The position numbers and the translations under genes are program-made. Of a stretch of DNA of 64,000 bases, positions 54,357-62,117 are shown piece by piece. Location of the stretch: positions 1,691,909 through 1,755,908 of the forward strand of contig NZ_KB892705.1 in NCBI RefSeq assembly GCF_000373905.1, read 5' to 3'. Position 1 is the stretch's first letter. The number at the start of each line of letters is the position of its first letter. The stretch is from Mycobacterium sp. 155 (GTDB lineage: Bacteria > Actinomycetota > Actinomycetes > Mycobacteriales > Mycobacteriaceae). A model generated the notes under the pieces. That model saw only the letters and a program-made list of their open reading frames with translations, had not been told where the DNA came from and did not search any database.

Positions 54357-54893
54357 CTACTTCGGCGTCTGGTAGTACTCGCGTTCGGAGACCCCGGCGA
54401 GCGGCGCCACGTACATCCAGGGGATGGTGCCGACCAAGCGGTTCAATGTGGCCACCGCGTCGTTGTAGTACTGGCGGGCAAAGGCCAGCTTGTTCTCTGT
54501 ATCGGTCAGGTTCTTCTGCAGGTCCAGAAAGTTGTTCGACGAGTTGAGCTGCGGGTAGGACGTGCCCAGCGCCAACACGCCTGCCAGGGCGCTGTCCAGA
54601 TTCTGCTCGGCCGCGCTGCGCTGGGCGACCGACTTGCCTCCGGTCGCCGAGGTCAGGGCGGCCCGCGCAGCGCTCACCCGGTCAAGGATCGCCTGCTCAT
54701 GCACGGCGAAGCTCTGCACGGTGTGCACCAGGGCCGGGATAAGCGCGGCACGACGGGTCAGTTCGACGTCGATCCCGCTGAGCGCCTCGGACACGGCGAT
54801 ATCCGCTGTACGAATCTTGTTGTAGCCCACCACAAAACCGAACAACACGAGCACAGCGAGCACCAGCACCGCGACCAGCACCACCGTCACCAT
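54357..54893 (-). CDS. lemA: LemA family protein
   Basis: A 178-residue protein with an N-terminal outside-facing anchor helix (VTVVLVAVLVLAVLVLFGFV) and a coiled-coil LemA domain: YNKIRTADIAVSEALSGIDV, RRAALIPALVHTVQSFAVHE and LDLQKNLTDTENKLAFARQY, which is the family signature. ATG 54893 overlaps the 3' end of the DUF2207 gene by 7 bases, so the longer apparent frame upstream is not used. LemA and DUF2207/TPM-type proteins often travel together; the role is unknown. Confidence 0.93.
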   Translation of the reverse strand: MVTVVLVAVLVLAVLVLFGFVVGYNKIRTADIAVSEALSGIDVELTRRAALIPALVHTVQSFAVHEQAILDRVSAARAALTSATGGKSVAQRSAAEQNLDSALAGVLALGTSYPQLNSSNNFLDLQKNLTDTENKLAFARQYYNDAVATLNRLVGTIPWMYVAPLAGVSEREYYQTPK

Positions 54894-56695
54894 GAACCTC
54901 CGCCTCCGCCTCCACCACCGCCGCCTCCACCACCGCTGGACCCTCCGCCGCTCGAGGACGACGACGACGATGACTGCGATGCGGTGTAGGCACCGATCGA
55001 TGACGACAGCGCCGAATCGAAACTGTCGAAGCCTGATCCGCCGGATCCGTCGGCGACACCCCAACTGCTATTCGACGACGCGTGGTACCAATCCGGTTGC
55101 GGGGCAACCGTACCCGTGACGTCCTGATACTTCTTGGCCCACAGTGCCGCGGTCCCAGCAGCCACCGCGAAAGGGATGTAGGCGGTGTAGAGATCCTTGC
55201 GCGCAGCGAAATCGAACCGGGTCTCGGCCGAATCCGTGGACAACAGCCGATGGAATCCGCCCACCCGCGACCAGAGTTCACGTCCCGCGGGGGTGCGCCG
55301 GGTGCCCACCCCGGCGCGCCACGAGCGTGCCGTGAGGACGAAGAACACTGCGAACGGCAGACCCCACATGGTCGCGGTGGCGCCGAACCACACCAGGAAT
55401 CCGCACAGCGCCGCGACCAATGCCACGGCGTTGGCGACGCGTAGCCACAGTTCCGCGCGCTGCCTGACCAAAAGCCCACTGTCGAAGGCCCACCTACGTA
55501 CGGCGGTGGCCAGGTCGGTCTTGGCCTTGTTGAGTTTCTCGCCGGAGCTCACCGACTTTTTGGCACGGAACTCGGCGCCGGTGTAGTTGACCTTGAGCGC
55601 GGACGCCACTGCGGACCCGACGGGGTCGACGTTGGCCCACGCCGCGTGGTTGACCAGGCCGCGGATCATCCATTGGTCGGCGTTGACCTGCCGCAACTCA
55701 ACCAGGCCGCGCTCGGCGAGATAGAACAGCGTCGCCGTCAGCGCGCTCTTGGGAACCGCTTCGGTGCGAATGTATTCGGCCTGTACGGGCCCGATCCCTT
55801 CCGGTGGTGCGTACTGCAGCGGGAAGCCGGGCGGCGGCTCATCGGTGCGGCGCGTCCAGAAGAACCCGGCCAGGCCGAGCGCCACCGTCAGTGCTGCCAC
55901 CCAGATCACCCCGGATACGGACCGGCCCAGCACCCGGTCCCAGGTGTACGGCCACGGCAGGGTGACCTGCGGCGGAGTGGGCACGTCGACACCGGCGCGC
56001 AGCGTGACCGGGGTGTGCGGATCGAGGTCGGCAGCGGTGAGCCGAACGGTGTCACCCGAGGTGGTCAGCGCCTCGCAGGCACGGCCGACGCCGTAGCCGA
56101 CGCTGCACTGCGCGCCGGTGGCCGCGGCCGGCAGCGTGAGCCTGACCGTGACGCGGTCGATCCGGTTGTTCCAGGCGGGGGCGACGACATTCCAGTAGAA
56201 CGCGGACGCGGAATTCGGCTCACCGACGGATCCTGCGAATCGTCGGTCGGCGCCGATGCGCCCAGGGTCCAGCACACCGTCGATGGTGTAGCGGATCTCG
56301 AACACGTGGCTGCCGTAGTCCAGGGTGCGGTCCGGATCGCCGATCTTGGCCACCGCGAACCGACCGCCGTCCTCGTCGAGCAGCCGATACTCCGCCGGTG
56401 CCCCATCGAGCCGGATCGAGGTGACGGTCGGTGGCTGACGCAGCCGGGGGTTGTTCGGGTTGGCCACATCCCAATACCGGAAGAGTCCGTGGCGTCCGCT
56501 CGGGAAATTCGCCGTGATGGTCTCGACGGCGGTGAGCTGCCCGTCGGCGCCGATTGAAAGATCCGCCGCGTAGTCGGTGATGACCACCGGGTCGTCAGTT
56601 GCGGCCGCGCCACCGCCGCTGGGCCAGAACGTCGGCCACAGCAGTCCAAACACGATGAGCGCCAACGTGAGCGACCAGGCCAGAACCCGACGCAT
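54887..56695 (-). CDS. DUF2207-type membrane protein with poly-Ser/Gly tail
   Basis: A 602-residue exported membrane protein: N-terminal signal or anchor (VLAWSLTLALIVFGLLWPTF), a large extracytoplasmic beta-domain (ITDYAADLSIGADGQL, ETITANFPSGRHGLFRYWDV) as in DUF2207, a transmembrane helix (VSGVIWVAALTVALGLAGFF), a cytoplasmic part and two further helices (about residues 425-465), then YTAYIPFAVAAGTAALWAKK. The C-terminus is eight consecutive serines, then glycines, including a run of 13, ending SW. ATG 56695 with GGAGGCGTA before it is taken over an ATG seven codons upstream. The displaced priA 3' end lies 46 bases upstream. Confidence 0.88.
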   Translation of the reverse strand: MRRVLAWSLTLALIVFGLLWPTFWPSGGGAAATDDPVVITDYAADLSIGADGQLTAVETITANFPSGRHGLFRYWDVANPNNPRLRQPPTVTSIRLDGAPAEYRLLDEDGGRFAVAKIGDPDRTLDYGSHVFEIRYTIDGVLDPGRIGADRRFAGSVGEPNSASAFYWNVVAPAWNNRIDRVTVRLTLPAAATGAQCSVGYGVGRACEALTTSGDTVRLTAADLDPHTPVTLRAGVDVPTPPQVTLPWPYTWDRVLGRSVSGVIWVAALTVALGLAGFFWTRRTDEPPPGFPLQYAPPEGIGPVQAEYIRTEAVPKSALTATLFYLAERGLVELRQVNADQWMIRGLVNHAAWANVDPVGSAVASALKVNYTGAEFRAKKSVSSGEKLNKAKTDLATAVRRWAFDSGLLVRQRAELWLRVANAVALVAALCGFLVWFGATATMWGLPFAVFFVLTARSWRAGVGTRRTPAGRELWSRVGGFHRLLSTDSAETRFDFAARKDLYTAYIPFAVAAGTAALWAKKYQDVTGTVAPQPDWYHASSNSSWGVADGSGGSGFDSFDSALSSSIGAYTASQSSSSSSSSGGGSSGGGGGGGGGGGGGSW

Positions 56696-56740
56696 TACGC
56701 CTCCCGTCCGGCGCACCGATGTGCTGGCGCGATGTCCCGC

Positions 56741-56782
56741 CTACCCTATGTGCATCGGGTCGATTTGGATACGCACCCTACC
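56741..56782 (-). pseudogene. priA: Displaced 3' end of priA (old C-terminus and stop)
   Basis: Reading minus from 56782, the frame gives GRVRIQIDPMHIG and a TAG stop at 56741-56743. The present PriA ends SRVQIDSLHIG. The similarity in sequence, frame and stop position shows this is the former tail of priA, cut off when the element inserted. Confidence 0.75.
56748..56769 (+). other. attL: left junction repeat
   Basis: 22-base sequence matching the priA 3' end at 60124-60145 with two mismatches; core GTCGATTTGGA at 56759-56769. The crossover should lie in this core. The 397-base gap from 56696 to 57092 holds this site, the displaced priA tail, candidate integrase arm sites and the excisionase promoter, and no other gene. 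Confidence 0.75.
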
Positions 56783-56846
56783 ATTTAGCACTTTGACCTG
56801 CATTAATAGACGGTTTCGGCTTGGTGGGCGGACCTTCTACCCTTCC

Positions 56847-56857
56847 GCTACCCATCC
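56847..56857 (+). repeat. Candidate arm-type integrase site (left)
   Basis: GCTACCCATCC here is repeated exactly at 60003-60013 near the right end, with CTACCC or CCTACCCC also found shortly before each copy. A related GCTACCCCCT is at 57031-57040. Repeats placed inside each end of an element fit integrase or excisionase arm sites. Confidence 0.4.
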
Positions 56858-57092
56858 GTGTTCGCTTTGCTCCTGCCCGATCGGTTAGCCACCCGGCCCC
56901 CGGCGAGTCCCTGCGCACATCACGCATTTTCACGCATTCTGCTATTCTCGAATTGTTCGGCCTAGCCCGCCGGAATTGCGCCACGGTAAGCGCCGAATTC
57001 AGCACGCAGGTATTCAAATTACCTGAGAACGCTACCCCCTAGAGCGTTGGCTATCCAATCGATCACGCCAACATTCGAAGGGTTTAAAGATT

Positions 57093-57296
57093 ATGCGGAA
57101 GAATCAACCTGCACAACAGGTTTCAAAGCGCCAGCTCATTTCCACCAAACAAGCCGCCGAACAGCTCAACGTCTCCCCCAACACGGTCAGAGCATTGATT
57201 GCCAACGGTCGGTTCGCCGGCTACAAAGGAGGCCGCTTGGTCAAGGTGGACGCAAACGAGGTTGAACGCTACATCGACCGAATCGCGACCAAATAG
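57093..57296 (+). CDS. xis: Excisionase-like HTH protein (recombination directionality factor)
   Basis: A 67-residue basic protein with a MerR/HTH_17-type DNA-binding domain: LISTKQAAEQLNVSPNTVRA, LIANGRFAGYKGGRLVKVDA and a final helix NEVERYIDRIATK. This is the usual form of small excisionases in actinobacterial integrative elements. It lies at the left end next to attL and points inward, away from the island's left edge. It could still bind DNA, but its integrase partner is broken. Confidence 0.75.
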   Translation: MRKNQPAQQVSKRQLISTKQAAEQLNVSPNTVRALIANGRFAGYKGGRLVKVDANEVERYIDRIATK

Positions 57297-57303
57297 GCGC
57301 GCA

Positions 57304-58469
57304 TTACCGAAGGTCTGAGCCACTCCGATTACCTTTGGGGCATCTACGAAGCTTTTCATGATAAGCATTCGCTAACGCTTCACGAACCTTCTTCTCGAAT
57401 TCCTTGCGACCCTCCTCTGTCGCAATATAAGCAAGGAATCTATGGCTTGTCGGGTCAGCTTCAATAGCCTCCGCTGTGCGTGGTCTCGATTCACTCTGGG
57501 GCCAGTTCGCTAGCTCAACTTGGTGCACAAGCCTTGGAAGTTCAAGGATGAATAGATGTGCTGCATCACGAAGGACGTTGTAGCGGCGCCCACGTTCAGC
57601 GGTAAATACGTTCCCAATTTCCAACAACAATTCGGTTCGTTCCGTATTATTCGTATAGATGTAGGAATTCAACGTCTCCACGGCGTCCGAAATATTATCG
57701 GCTGCGAGGGATAGCGTCGGAGTATATGTACGTATGTGGATAGCGTCCAGTAGATCTTGCAACGGATTGCCGGTGCCCGCCATCCACTTTTGTAGACCCG
57801 AATCGGATTCATCGCCGATCCACTTAAGCCCTTGTTCTAGCCGCTGAAGCCTCACGTATTGATCAAGTACGCGCCACGCACTTTGCAGTTGGGCCCATTC
57901 TTTCTCAGTATCATGGCCAATTGGCTCCATTACATCGTTTATCGCAACCCTCAGTTTCCCTGCCGCAACTCTCATATACTCAACTTTATCGCCAAGCTGT
58001 AGGCCGTATTCGTCATCAAATTCCACAGACTCGCCGCGAACATGCTTCAAGTACTGTTCAACAGAACCGGATACTTCATCGTAAGCGTTTTTACATCACG
58101 GGCTTGCATTTGCACCAGTCTGAATCGCTCATTAGACGCAAACTTCAAGGAAAGATCGCGGAATGTATACCAAGCATTTTGGGATAATCTATTAACTCGA
58201 TCAAGCGTCGCTTACTCTTCACGCTGAGCGGTCATGGTCGCTAATGCGACCAAAGCAAATGGAACACCAATAAGAAACCCAGTCAACCCCGCCCAGATGT
58301 TTGTTACGAAACCTAGATTCTGCGACCAATCATCTGGCGCGAAATCAGTGAATGCGCCAAATGCTACTGATATGAATCCCGCAACAACCATTCCTACTAG
58401 CAGGCGTTGCACCCAAAGGCCGTAGCTAAGGAATGACTTACTGATCGGCCACTCCTTGACATTGCTCAT
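57304..58469 (-). pseudogene. Two-TM membrane protein gene broken by a stop and a frameshift
   Basis: From ATG 58469 (overlapping the upstream gene's stop as ATGA) the frame encodes MSNVKEWPISKSFLSYGLWV, two membrane helices (LLVGMVVAGFISVAFGAF; IWAGLTGFLIGVPFALVALA) and stops at TAA 58212-58214 after QREE. Reading on in the same frame gives sensible protein (ATLDRVNRLSQNAWYTFRDL, SLKFASNERFRLVQMQARDV) until about 58082, where a missing base shifts the frame. The rest continues as YDEVSGSVEQYLKHVRGESV and on to the stop at 57304. The A5 run at 58087-58091, or the bases after it, is the likely indel site. Intact it would be about 388 residues: a two-helix anchor and an all-helical cytoplasmic domain. 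Family unknown. Confidence 0.75.
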
Positions 58470-59362
58470 TTTCGAAATCCGATCGAGGCTAAAGCGCGCA
58501 AGGCCCACCCCTTCAGTTTGAACCATTTCAAGCCCAGCCGATATCGACGGGTACCCTTCAAAGGCGGGCGCACCGCTGACGCCAACTTCACTTCCGATTC
58601 ATCAATTGCGAGGAAAGCGCCAGTCTCTGTATGAATAAGTTCAGGAGACGCGACCGTCAAGGTATTCACAGTGATGCCAGATGCATCAATTGGTTCACCT
58701 TCACCCGAATGATCGTGCGCGAATACACCGCTTCCCCTATCGGCATATGAGAAATCTTCGTAAAACTGGCCCGCACCCGCTTGATTATGGGACAGCCAGT
58801 AGAACTGCATCGCGCCAGCTTCCCGAAGGTTGTAATGCTGCACATACCCATGTCGCAATCGTATTGCGACCCACAAATGCTCTCCCCCATAACCAATACC
58901 GCGCTTAGGGAACTTATCTTTTCCAAGCCTGATTTTCAGCATATTGAATGTCAGCCGCTTTGTGTTGTAATGCATCCGTGGATTGGTGACAGTAATCGAG
59001 TACGAAAACACGGCACGGTCACGAATCTCAATAATCACCCAGGCTCCCGCAAGGCGGTAGGTTCTCGTCTCGTTGCCGCCACGTTGACCGACGAATTGCG
59101 CCACACCGAACAGTGATTCGACGTACTCGACTGAGCTTCCGCAAGCCAGTTGATCCAAGAGCTTCGCTTGTGCCCTGCGACGGCCCAACCACACAGCCAG
59201 CGGGTTCAACACAAATTTGATCGCCGCCCACGCAATACCTGCAAGGACCGTCACGCCGACGGTTGCGCTAACAACGCTGTCCCAGTGCGACCAATCCAAG
59301 GCCTTCAACCACTCCACCAACCACGACACGCAACGAATCATCGCAGCGCGTAGCGCCAACAT
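58466..59362 (-). CDS. Membrane-anchored cargo protein, ETEC_3214-like
   Basis: A 298-residue protein with one N-terminal membrane helix (SVVSATVGVTVLAGIAWAAI), then a soluble domain starting LLDQLACGSSVEYVESLFGV and passing through AGAWVIIEIRDRAVFSYSIT. This order (helix, a G-x-x-x-x-Y-x-x-x-x-LG segment, and strands with a FSVT-like motif) resembles proteins labelled ETEC_3214 domain; that is a recollection of the pattern and not a search result. An alternative start, ATG 59341, overlaps the integrase-fragment stop as ATGA. The 3' end is coupled to the broken two-TM gene, so the two acted as a pair. Its base composition is lower in G+C than its core neighbours. Confidence 0.6.
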   Translation of the reverse strand: MLALRAAMIRCVSWLVEWLKALDWSHWDSVVSATVGVTVLAGIAWAAIKFVLNPLAVWLGRRRAQAKLLDQLACGSSVEYVESLFGVAQFVGQRGGNETRTYRLAGAWVIIEIRDRAVFSYSITVTNPRMHYNTKRLTFNMLKIRLGKDKFPKRGIGYGGEHLWVAIRLRHGYVQHYNLREAGAMQFYWLSHNQAGAGQFYEDFSYADRGSGVFAHDHSGEGEPIDASGITVNTLTVASPELIHTETGAFLAIDESEVKLASAVRPPLKGTRRYRLGLKWFKLKGWALRALASIGFRK

Positions 59363-59859
59363 AGTGAACCGCCCCGAGTTTGATGCACGTGATTATTGGT
59401 GTGCAGCCTCTGATTGGGCTGTGCGTTGCGTGTGGGGTACTCAGTGCCCAAACTTGCAAACCAATCCCGCACAGCCTCAGTTGACATGTCTTTGACGGCT
59501 ACGTGTTCGAATGCCGGAACGATCAGCTTGTCCCACTTGTCCTGATACAGATCGCGGCTTGTGTCTTTGAGCTTGCGCTGTGCGATCACCTTGGAACCGT
59601 ATTCGATGAACCCCAGGGCCTTAGCTTTCTTTTCGTTCTCGCGTTCCTCGACAGTGCGCCACCGTTCGCCGGTTCCCTCGCAGCGATCAATGTAGATCTT
59701 CTCATTCAAAAGCCAAGCCTCAGCGCTCATCTTGTCGGTAAAGATGCGCGGTGCGTAGTGCCTGCGACCATCCGGCCCGTTGAAACTTGCCTGAAAGCTA
59801 GGCCGTTTCGTCGGTTGCTTTTTGATCGAGCCCCACGCTCTGTGACCTTTTTTCGCCAT
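59338..59859 (-). pseudogene. int: Truncated tyrosine integrase (N-terminal part only)
   Basis: ATG 59859 has GGAGAAGG upstream. The 173 residues contain the N-terminal arm-binding region (MAKKGHRAWGSIKKQ, RPSFQASFNGPDGRRHYAPR) and the core-binding helices (KLKDTSRDLYQDKWDKLIVP, VKDMSTEAVRDWFASLG). After EYPTRNAQ the sequence stops looking like an integrase and ends about 26 residues later. The catalytic domain with the R-HxxR-Y residues is absent anywhere downstream, so it was probably lost in a deletion that joined it to the cargo gene. Recombinase activity is not expected. Confidence 0.8.
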
Positions 59860-60002
59860 GTTGACCTTCTCCAATCCAGTTGTGACCCTTGTGAACTGAA
59901 TTGAGCAAACGAATCGTGAGGGATTCAACGCTGGCGCAGAGCTTTTCATACTGAGGGCGAAAATTGCCCCCGACCTGTATGTTTGCTGAAACCTACCCCT
60001 TA

Positions 60003-60013
60003 GCTACCCATCC
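60003..60013 (+). repeat. Candidate arm-type integrase site (right)
   Basis: Second exact copy of GCTACCCATCC, in the same orientation as 56847-56857, within the gene-free stretch between the integrase start and the priA stop (59860-60116). Confidence 0.4.
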
Positions 60014-60116
60014 AGCCTGCGCGAAACCGCTTTTCTCGCGCAACCTGAGTGCACTCCTTGGCAGGCGAAACTGATTGTGCCCCAACGGATATGCAGGTCA
60101 GAGTTTGTTTGCTGGA

Positions 60117-62117
60117 TCAGCCGATGTGCAACGAGTCGATTTGGACGCGGGATGGTTCCTGCTCGCGTCGCGCGCTGAGCACGGCCGTCGCGCGGCGCAG
60201 CGCGGCCGACAGCGCCAGCCCATCGTCGCGTGGCACGCGGACCAGCATGCGGGTCACGTCGGCATCCGGGTCGACTCCAGGCGGTCGCCGCGCACCCGGG
60301 GGCAACTCGACCGGCCCGAGCAGTTCGGCCGAATCGGGCAGTTGTGCGGAGTCCAACAGCGCGGTCACCGCCGGCCCGGTGCCGTCGACCGCGGCCATGT
60401 GCACCGCGGGCGGCAGCCCCACCTCACTGCGGGCATCGAGTTCGGCATCGGCCTGGCCGACGGGGTCCCAGCGGATCAGGGCCTGCACGGTGGGTATCGT
60501 CGCCTCGGCCACCACCGCGACCGCGCCACCGTCGCTGCGTGGGCGCACAAGGGCAGCAGCCGCCATCCACCGCCGCAGGGTGTCTTCGGCGGCACGCAGG
60601 TCCTGCCGGCCCAGCAGCGCCCAGCCGTCGAGCAACAGCGCGGCGCCGTAGCCCCCTTCGGCGACCGGTTCGGCGCCCGGCGTCGAGACCACCAGCGCCG
60701 GCCCGCCACCGACAGCGGCCACCACGTCGTCACCACTGGAGGTGATCACGCTGACGCCCGGGAACGCCCGTCCGAGTTCCTCGGCGGTGCGGCGGGCACC
60801 GACGACGACGGCGCGTACCGCGTCCGAACCGCAGCGCGCACACCGCAGTGCCGGTTCAGGTCGCCCGCACCACCGGCATTCGGCGGCCGCACTGTCGCGA
60901 TCGGGCAGGGCCATCGGGCCTGTGCAGTGCCGGCACCGGGCGATCGTGCGGCAGCGCGCACAAGCCAGCGCCGGAACATAGCCGCGGCGGGGCACTTGAA
61001 CCAGTACGGGGCGCTCCGCCTGCAATGCCGAACGAGCGGCCTGCAGCGCCATCGACGGCAGCCGTGCGGTCCGTGCGGCTGGATCGCGTTCCTGGGCGTA
61101 CCCGCTGTCTTCGATGGCCACGATCCGAGCCGCGGCCGACCGCACCACCGGCCGGGCGGCCACCAGGTCGTGAGCCCACCGGGTACGCACCAGGGCCTGA
61201 GCTTCCGCGGTGCGGGCGTAGCCGCCGATCATCGCTGCACAACGCAATTGGTGCGCGCGCAGCATCGCCACCTCGCGAGCGTGCGGGTAGGGTGCGCGCG
61301 GCTCGGCGAGGTTGTCATCGCCGTCGTCCCACACCAGTACCAGGCCGAGATCGCGGACCGGGGCGAACACCGCACTACGGGTGCCGATCACCAGCCGGGC
61401 GTCCCCGCGCAGCACCGATAGCCAGCGTCGGTACCGCTGCGCCGGGCCCAGCCCGGCCGACAACGCCGCCACGCGCGACGCCGGAACATGTTCGACCGCC
61501 GCCGCGTACAGCGCGTCGACGTCGCGCTGGTCGGGCATGACCGCCAGCACGCCCTGTCCGGCGCCGACCGCCACCGCCGCGGCTTCGGCCAGCCGCCGCG
61601 GCCAGTGTTCCCCGGGCAGCGCCTGCCACACGGCGCGGGCGGCCCGCCGGTCCTGCAATGCCATCAGGAACTGCTCGCCGCGCCCGTAACGCGCCCAGCC
61701 ACCGGTGTCGACGGCAGCCTCCGGCAGCGGATCTGGTTCGGCCGGTATCTGTTTTTCCACGGTGGCGTGGCGTGGCGGGACTGCCAGGCGCAGGACATCC
61801 GCACGCGTACCCGCGTAACGCGCCGCTACGGCGTCGACGAGCCGCCGGATCTCGGCGGTGAGCACTGTTTCCGGCGAGACCACGCGGTCCAGCCAGCCCA
61901 ACTTGCCGGTGTGATCGGTGTCCGAGCGCCGCTCCAGCACGAACGCGTCGACCAGCCGGCCGTTGAACCGCACCCGCACCCGCACCCCGGGCTGCGCATC
62001 GTCGGACTGCTCGGCCGCGACCAGATAGTCGAACTCACGGTCCAGGTGTGGCACTGACAGCATCGGCAGCACCCGCGCGATGGGCTCGTGCTCGGCGGCC
62101 TGCCGCGTCGTCGTCAC
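60117..62117 (-). CDS. priA: PriA-like primosomal protein N', helicase motifs degenerate
   Basis: A 666-residue PriA-family protein for replication restart. The zinc-binding region is intact: ACARCRTIARCRHCTGPMA followed by CRWCGRPEPALRCARCG. The expected Walker A is replaced by AVAVGAGQGVLAVMPDQ with no GKT, and the DEEH box by VLVWDDGDDN, so ATP-driven helicase activity is unlikely, as known for actinobacterial PriA. GTG 62117 is chosen because the longer frame runs into lipH. The last residues (SLHIG) are supplied by the right end of the integrated element; the older tail (PMHIG) lies at 56741-56782. Confidence 0.9.
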   Translation of the reverse strand: MTTTRQAAEHEPIARVLPMLSVPHLDREFDYLVAAEQSDDAQPGVRVRVRFNGRLVDAFVLERRSDTDHTGKLGWLDRVVSPETVLTAEIRRLVDAVAARYAGTRADVLRLAVPPRHATVEKQIPAEPDPLPEAAVDTGGWARYGRGEQFLMALQDRRAARAVWQALPGEHWPRRLAEAAAVAVGAGQGVLAVMPDQRDVDALYAAAVEHVPASRVAALSAGLGPAQRYRRWLSVLRGDARLVIGTRSAVFAPVRDLGLVLVWDDGDDNLAEPRAPYPHAREVAMLRAHQLRCAAMIGGYARTAEAQALVRTRWAHDLVAARPVVRSAAARIVAIEDSGYAQERDPAARTARLPSMALQAARSALQAERPVLVQVPRRGYVPALACARCRTIARCRHCTGPMALPDRDSAAAECRWCGRPEPALRCARCGSDAVRAVVVGARRTAEELGRAFPGVSVITSSGDDVVAAVGGGPALVVSTPGAEPVAEGGYGAALLLDGWALLGRQDLRAAEDTLRRWMAAAALVRPRSDGGAVAVVAEATIPTVQALIRWDPVGQADAELDARSEVGLPPAVHMAAVDGTGPAVTALLDSAQLPDSAELLGPVELPPGARRPPGVDPDADVTRMLVRVPRDDGLALSAALRRATAVLSARREQEPSRVQIDSLHIG
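60124..60145 (+). other. attR: right junction repeat inside the priA 3' end
   Basis: Counterpart of 56748-56769; encodes VQIDSLHI of PriA on the minus strand. The repeat keeps the priA frame and stop intact, so integration did not disable the gene. Confidence 0.75.

Follow-up and report, generated by a model that had tools for sequence, protein, structure and literature searches.

The window analysed here, a 64,000-nucleotide stretch of the Mycobacterium sp. 155 genome (contig NZ_KB892705.1, positions 1,691,909 to 1,755,908), carries an islet of 3.4 kb directly beyond the 3' end of the primosome gene priA, and this islet is almost certainly the remnant of a mobile element inserted there by a tyrosine integrase. 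A direct repeat of the priA gene end is present at both islet borders (56745-56769 and 60121-60145), with 22 of 25 nucleotides identical (88%) at a spacing of 3,376 bp. The original prediction, made from the letters of this stretch, had reported a 22-base repeat with 20 identical at that spacing, and across those bases we counted the same 20/22. The core repeat is far above chance: the live 22-mer had no further site with at least 16 of 22 matching bases in the 64-kb window, and a degenerate core pattern, derived from both repeat copies themselves, matched twice in the 64 kb and never in 100 shuffles. Both copies lie on the minus strand, the live one comprising the final priA codons and reading SRVQIDSLHIG-stop, the far one reading in frame to its stop as GRVRIQIDPMHIG-stop, exactly as had been claimed. 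The DNA between the copies has 47-58% G+C against 62-75% in its surroundings (500-bp windows). No tRNA gene was found in the window by ARAGORN, and single-strand folding of the islet ends was unremarkable (z 0.00 and -1.54). The borders and their host genes are the following.

60117..62060, minus strand: priA, the live gene, ending SRVQIDSLHIG-stop, recognised by PF17764 and by comparison with relatives (the open reading frame (ORF) stays open up to 62489; the portion compared with relatives begins at 62060).
60117..60149, minus strand: priA-side attachment junction between host priA and islet, with repeat unit 60121-60145.
56741..56782, minus strand: far attachment junction, the priA-tail copy GRVRIQIDPMHIG-stop followed by the original host flank, with repeat unit 56745-56769.
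54887..56716, minus strand: gene for a DUF2207 membrane protein, the host neighbour of priA in empty sites.

We compared this locus with those of PriA relatives, of which the best 80 of 526 were kept. Mycobacterium sp. 141 (L010), the nearest named relative, has 45 bp (counted by eye) between the priA stop and the ATG of the DUF2207 gene. Compared with this empty site over 120 bp downstream, the far junction was 117/120 identical and the priA-side junction 37/120, while over 120 bp upstream the live copy was 107/120 identical and the far copy 51/120. One junction thus passes from host to islet and the other from islet to host, with only the core common to both, which is the geometry of a site-specific insertion. 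DUF2207 began no more than 70 bp from the priA stop in 55 of the 80 relatives (three of these with tandem DUF2207), five had an insert of 1.4-3.5 kb between the two genes, and in 20 DUF2207 was not seen in the DNA examined; 19 of the 80 related contigs stop 1.6-1.9 kb beyond priA. These contig ends fall near the glycine-rich 3' end of DUF2207 (window 54887-54960), a low-complexity stretch that may break assemblies, and on two of these 19 contigs (L045 and L089) DUF2207 was not seen.

The expectation that priA runs straight into the DUF2207 region at empty sites was thus confirmed, in L010 as in the 55 relatives, while the PMHIG ending proposed for such sites was seen in 0 of the 80: their priA genes end in PLHIG (78), PPQIG (one) or PLQIG (one). 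Neither the Ser codon of the live copy nor the Met codon of the far copy is present in the priA genes of these relatives, and an SLHIG ending, with or without an element, was not seen among them. The live gene, its reading frame rebuilt, closes with DSLHIG-stop where 78 of 80 relatives have PLHIG.

The islet also contains the remains of an integration module. The ORF adjoining priA encodes a tyrosine-integrase fragment, the N-terminal part, which has 35-37% identity to mycobacteriophage integrases among the matches listed. Its identity to residues 1-147 of P0009, a protein of 419 residues found in public data, is 89.8%. The homology stops at window position 59419, the rest of P0009 had no significant match anywhere in the islet, and the catalytic domain is absent. 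As only about 147 of some 419 residues are retained, we regard the islet as a remnant, and most likely an immobile one; the next-best integrase match of the same genome has 29% identity. At the far end of the islet sits an excisionase-like protein of 67 residues, so that the A+T-richer islet with an excisionase and an integrase fragment described in the original prediction is indeed there. The parts of the module are listed below, together with an inverted repeat observed just inside both junctions, whose 10-base centre (TGACCTGCAT) is absent near the ends of the related element in genome G218 that is described next.

59419..59859, minus strand: tyrosine-integrase N-terminal remnant, homologous to P0009 residues 1-147 (enclosing ORF 59338-59949).
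57093..57296, plus strand: excisionase-like helix-turn-helix protein, 67 aa (TIGR01764, HTH_17), 73% identical over 56 residues to that of G218.
59993..60008, minus strand: arm-like motif on the priA side, a pair of GGTAG units spaced 11 bp; the window has only one other.
56837..56852, minus strand: arm-like motif on the far side, two GGTAG units 11 bp apart (repeat family D2).
56790..56803, plus strand: left arm of the inverted repeat, just inside the far junction (pair I2, 14 nt, 93% complementary).
60091..60104, plus strand: right arm of the same pair, just inside the priA-side junction.

A search of 396 genomes of the genus with the integrase fragment gave matches in 158 at 1e-5, and 30 integrase loci were inspected (the window's own, that of G218 and 28 others, L124-L151). 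The best match outside the own genome was in G218, with 65% identity over 154 residues in a 430-codon open frame, and this integrase gene adjoins the priA end between two priA-end copies 11.6 kb apart. Against the empty site in G082 (L112), G218 had 89/120 identical bases at its far junction and 32/120 on its priA side. The G218 element (L182) encodes an intact 420-aa integrase (phrog_1, 1.4e-34), an excisionase-like short frame near its far end, a Prim-Pol protein and a major head protein (phrog_3990, 2.9e-103) that is 41-42% identical to mycobacterial and Gordonia phage counterparts among the matches listed. A possible small terminase (a weak match, 0.0046) was the one other structural or packaging match among the nine G218 ORFs scanned with PHROGs. 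In both elements the integrase gene adjoins one junction, as a fragment in the window and intact in G218, and their priA-side ends are 86% alike over 43 bp spanning core and stop. Judged by its gene content and borders, G218 apparently carries an intact, larger element in the same priA end.

It had been suggested that integrases be sought next to priA 3' ends in other actinobacteria. Within the genus this succeeded for G218, with its 11.6-kb element and second core copy, and failed for the 28 further loci, which had no priA match within about 1.5 kb on each side. No relative of the G218 integrase lay near priA in the 80 named loci, of which 19 are on the contigs that end 1.6-1.9 kb past priA. 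In IMG/VR, back-translated patterns retrieved no relatives of the integrase or the head protein of G218, and the core pattern had no exact match. The priA-tail DNA matched 54 phage records at E up to 10, the best E being 0.6 among the 15 listed, and among plasmids 11 records matched P0009, with only 22-28% identity among the 10 listed.

After viewing the ends of both elements, we defined an arm-like motif, GGTA[AG]N6GGTAG. The 64-kb window has two occurrences, one just within either end of the islet, and the 19-kb G218 locus likewise has two, one close to either end of its element; the 1.45 Mb of the 80 named priA loci have a single one. The pairs lie about 70-115 bp inside the two cores, and we read these tandem GGTAG units as putative arm-type integrase sites.

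Taken together, the observations fit a scheme in which the attachment site of the incoming element carried its own copy of the last priA codons and recombined with the host within the common core of about 22 bp (TCCAAATNGACYCGNTRCACAT on the priA strand), the integrase presumably binding the paired arm-like motifs as well. priA would have been left with an element-supplied end and stop, and its original last bases, stop and DUF2207 flank would have been displaced by 3,376 bp. An integrase-mediated insertion that rebuilds the end of its target gene, as first proposed for this site, is supported both by the empty-site comparison (117/120 against 37/120) and by the G218 element, and the islet may descend from an element sharing the G218 integration module. 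Later, the catalytic domain of the integrase would have been lost and one cargo gene apparently broken, leaving an islet that its own enzyme can probably not move.

Several points weigh against this interpretation. The nearest empty site comes from another genome (G063), not from the window's own species; at its priA end G063 has 94% identity to the window over 597 bp and the same letters as L010. The crossover can be located only roughly, so the unusual Ser codon of the live gene may have been supplied by the element or may have arisen later. An integrase of this subfamily stood beside priA in only two of the 30 integrase loci inspected. The arm-like motif was written post hoc from the islet ends, so its count in the window is no independent test; the background count is independent, and the G218 count only partly so, as its ends had been viewed before the motif was fixed.

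Between the integration genes lie three cargo ORFs.

58466..59362, minus strand: cargo C, a 298-aa ETEC_3214-domain protein (NF043066, 48.1 bits, cut-off 35).
58212..58526, minus strand: cargo B, 104 aa, which, to judge from the lengths of the relatives of A, is probably the N-terminal part of a gene that broke into B and A.
57304..58050, minus strand: cargo A, 248 aa, by the same reasoning probably the C-terminal part of that gene.

Cargo C had 42 other relatives, and of the six that bear an organism name five are mycobacterial. A and B were searched as separate sequences. Five of the six other relatives of A have 362-401 aa and one longer relative occurs in Mycolicibacterium hippocampi; because those five are so much longer than the 248 aa of A, a single gene has probably broken into A and B (104 aa). 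PADLOC models gave no match to any of the three cargo ORFs at 0.01. The islet as a whole might be a decayed phage satellite of the G218 kind, which we consider possible but the less probable option: the two elements share the site, the motif at both ends, a related integrase and an excisionase-like gene, and the G218 element carries a major head protein and Prim-Pol. Against it, no capsid, primase, packaging or replication gene was recognised among the ORFs of the window islet in Pfam and PHROGs scans, and A, B and C had no match in the G218 locus. As no capsid or replication gene was recognised, we do not class the window islet as a satellite.

Other islets at the priA junction bear on a further alternative. 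The core-pattern scan gave a match in 354 of the 396 genomes. We re-listed the 16 with two same-strand matches, leaving out G320, whose matches are on different contigs, and genomes with one match per strand, and found a nearby same-strand second priA-tail copy in 12 of the 16 (the own genome, G218, G056, G102, G110, G128, G141, G297, G300, G301, G339 and G374); the scan may miss more diverged relicts, as in L018, L024, L054 and L065. Among the 11 second-copy loci L182-L192, only G218 matched the integrase fragment or the arm-like motif. G339 (L016, Mycobacterium sp. DL99) has a 1.6-kb islet of 54% G+C between priA and DUF2207 (L016:11944-13603), with a priA-tail copy at its far end and a gene for a 410-aa RelA/SpoT-domain protein (PF04607; PADLOC candidate PDC-S33). 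G297, G141, G128 and G300 have a 1.4-kb islet with SDR and MarR-like genes (named by eye). This SDR/MarR islet (L023, L025, L046 and L186), with a priA-tail copy at its far end, is common to several species, among them M. porcinum and M. setense, and is probably one old insertion. In G301 and G102 (L191 and L192) a second priA-tail copy lies 47 bp beyond the live one, perhaps an insertion scar or a short duplication.

With such islets in view, the window islet could be a non-autonomous cassette that a related integrase from another element can still move, a proposal compatible with the remnant of an inserted element that we favour. It is in keeping with the retention of the cores, both motif pairs and the excisionase-like gene, and with the RelA/SpoT islet of G339 and the SDR/MarR islet of the four genomes, which occupy the same place and have a distal priA-tail copy without any match to the integrase fragment. 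We nevertheless think it unlikely: the own genome has no second integrase of the subfamily (next match 29% identity), the motif is absent from islets L016, L023, L025, L046 and L054 and from the ten other second-copy loci L183-L192, and the occurrence of the SDR islet in several species looks like vertical inheritance.

The notion that the two copies are a mere duplication of the priA end, by slippage or unequal crossing-over without an integrase, fits L018, L024 and L065, which have two DUF2207 copies in tandem, the second preceded by a relict of the priA 3' end, but for the window it is most improbable, as the similarity there is limited to the core of about 25 bp, the intervening DNA is A+T-richer, contains integrase and excisionase-like genes and has the arm-like motif at either end, and G218 shows the same arrangement. 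Since tandem duplication in those three loci also leaves priA-tail copies, we did not count the other islets as proof of integrase activity; they may be old integrase-borne insertions or of other origin.

Two further attempts at the priA junction added no elements. A pattern of the priA-side end matched 55 of 386 genomes at up to three mismatches, exactly only in the own genome. Its first half is the priA end itself, hence several near matches at priA ends, and it missed G218, where the spacing is one base off; because a reversed control pattern matched in several genomes too and G218 was missed, it is uninformative on frequency. G193 (L050), where priA is followed by TTCAGCAAAC, was rejected as a further element: 26 kb of its DNA had no integrase, excisionase or cargo match, and a motif scan of 10 kb was empty. 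In G193 (L253:2515-7037), about 4.5 kb of other genes take the place of DUF2207 between priA and an fmt-like gene (by eye).

The wider integrase family suggests where the priA specificity may have come from. When the 7,999 best candidates were scored against the G218 integrase, the full-length relatives formed a group at 58-70% identity (P0001-P0013), followed by a drop to 46% or less. In all six of the more distant relatives L256-L261 (42-45% identity) we found GGTTCGAATCCTGCCGGGGGCAC upstream of the integrase, and it was present at 19 or more of 23 positions in 37 of 57 integrase locus rows (some genes being counted twice) and in neither G218 row. In the window's own genome GGTTCGAATCCTGCCGGGGGCAC is the end of tRNA-Arg(CCG) and of tRNA-Arg(CCT). 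ARAGORN found no complete tRNA in L256-L261, so GGTTCGAATCCTGCCGGGGGCAC there resembles copied tRNA ends, presumably of the same tRNAs in those genomes. The arm-like motif was present in eight of 29 integrase loci scanned (that of G218, L124, L126-L130 and L141). Among the more distant mycobacterial integrases beside a tRNA 3' end, 39-45% identical to that of G218, L124 and L126-L130 have the same tandem motif, with a tRNA 3' end rather than priA as core. The orientation also differs: the tRNA end reads away from the integrase (L256-L261), priA towards it (window, L182). A likeness between the priA core and the tRNA end was considered as the cause of the change and rejected, since a fraction of 0.61-0.997 of random 33-mers from the window scored as high.

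The simplest reading that this suggests is that the core of the integrase changed and its arms were retained. On a broader proposal, to which we give about even chances, a mycobacterial integrase clade moved from a tRNA-Arg 3' end to the priA 3' end with its tandem arm sites retained, and small satellites and cargo islets of the genus thereby came to dock repeatedly at priA (the capsid-bearing satellite, the RelA/SpoT islet and the ETEC_3214 islet), each bringing a replacement priA tail.

A tyrosine-integrase element that rebuilds the 3' end of a gene is of a known kind. According to the text of PMC8092301, the bacterial attachment site (attB) attB-8 of the MabH prophages in M. abscessus is the 3' end of MAB_2979, where the last seven host residues are replaced by eight prophage residues and the protein is likely functional; MAB_2979 is named selR, a methionine sulfoxide reductase gene, in a passage of PMC8707978. 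As in the window, an Int-Y element occupies the 3' end of a protein-coding gene, but the gene is selR, not priA, and the two prophages listed for it are full-size (43.6 and 43.9 kb). We had considered attB-8 as a possible priA site and rejected it on account of the selR gene and of the MabH phage attachment site (attP), which lies inside the repressor gene (in the first 6 kb of the record). The main text of PMC10654092 lists 29 M. abscessus attB sites, with seven Int-Y sites outside tRNA and tmRNA genes, and assigns every prophage attB site predicted for three other Mycobacterium groups to a tRNA-Lys or tmRNA gene. The best-ranked annotated phage relatives are the tyrosine integrases of the mycobacteriophages Centaur, Trixie and Serenity (32-37% identity among the matches listed), far more distant than P0001-P0013, which have 58-70% identity to that of G218.

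The G218 element also resembles the candidate Mycobacterium phage-inducible chromosomal islands (PICIs) of PMC10654092. It has both the integrase and the major capsid protein used there as search criterion, plus a replication protein, and its integrase and capsid genes within 11.6 kb fit the working definition given in that main text; PICIs span 6-18 kb according to a passage of PMC11389934. The three tyrosine-integrase examples mapped in the main text of PMC10654092 lie in tRNA genes, whereas the G218 and window elements lie in priA, and the window islet differs further in having no recognised capsid gene.

That priA is no standard mycobacterial site is consistent with PMC8092301, PMC10654092 and PMC9934374, none of which names priA in its main text, although their supplementary attB tables, outside this scope, may still list the site. 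In the matching passages of six further papers (PMC6299477, PMC8616872, PMC6536676, PMC12924245, PMC7556043 and PMC5357621) priA is never an integration site: in three the match is another word (PRIAM or an author name), and in three it is a repair or replication-restart gene. As far as our searches go, the priA site, the apparently intact element there and the apparent switch from a tRNA target have not been described.

The finding adds to the mycobacterial mobilome a docking site in a protein-coding gene, and in a core DNA-replication gene at that. The core together with the paired motif provides a signature for finding such elements, and the distant tRNA-end integrases with the same motif and another core offer a natural, testable case of integrase target change. 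An intact priA-specific integrase could serve integration vectors for laboratory mycobacteria.

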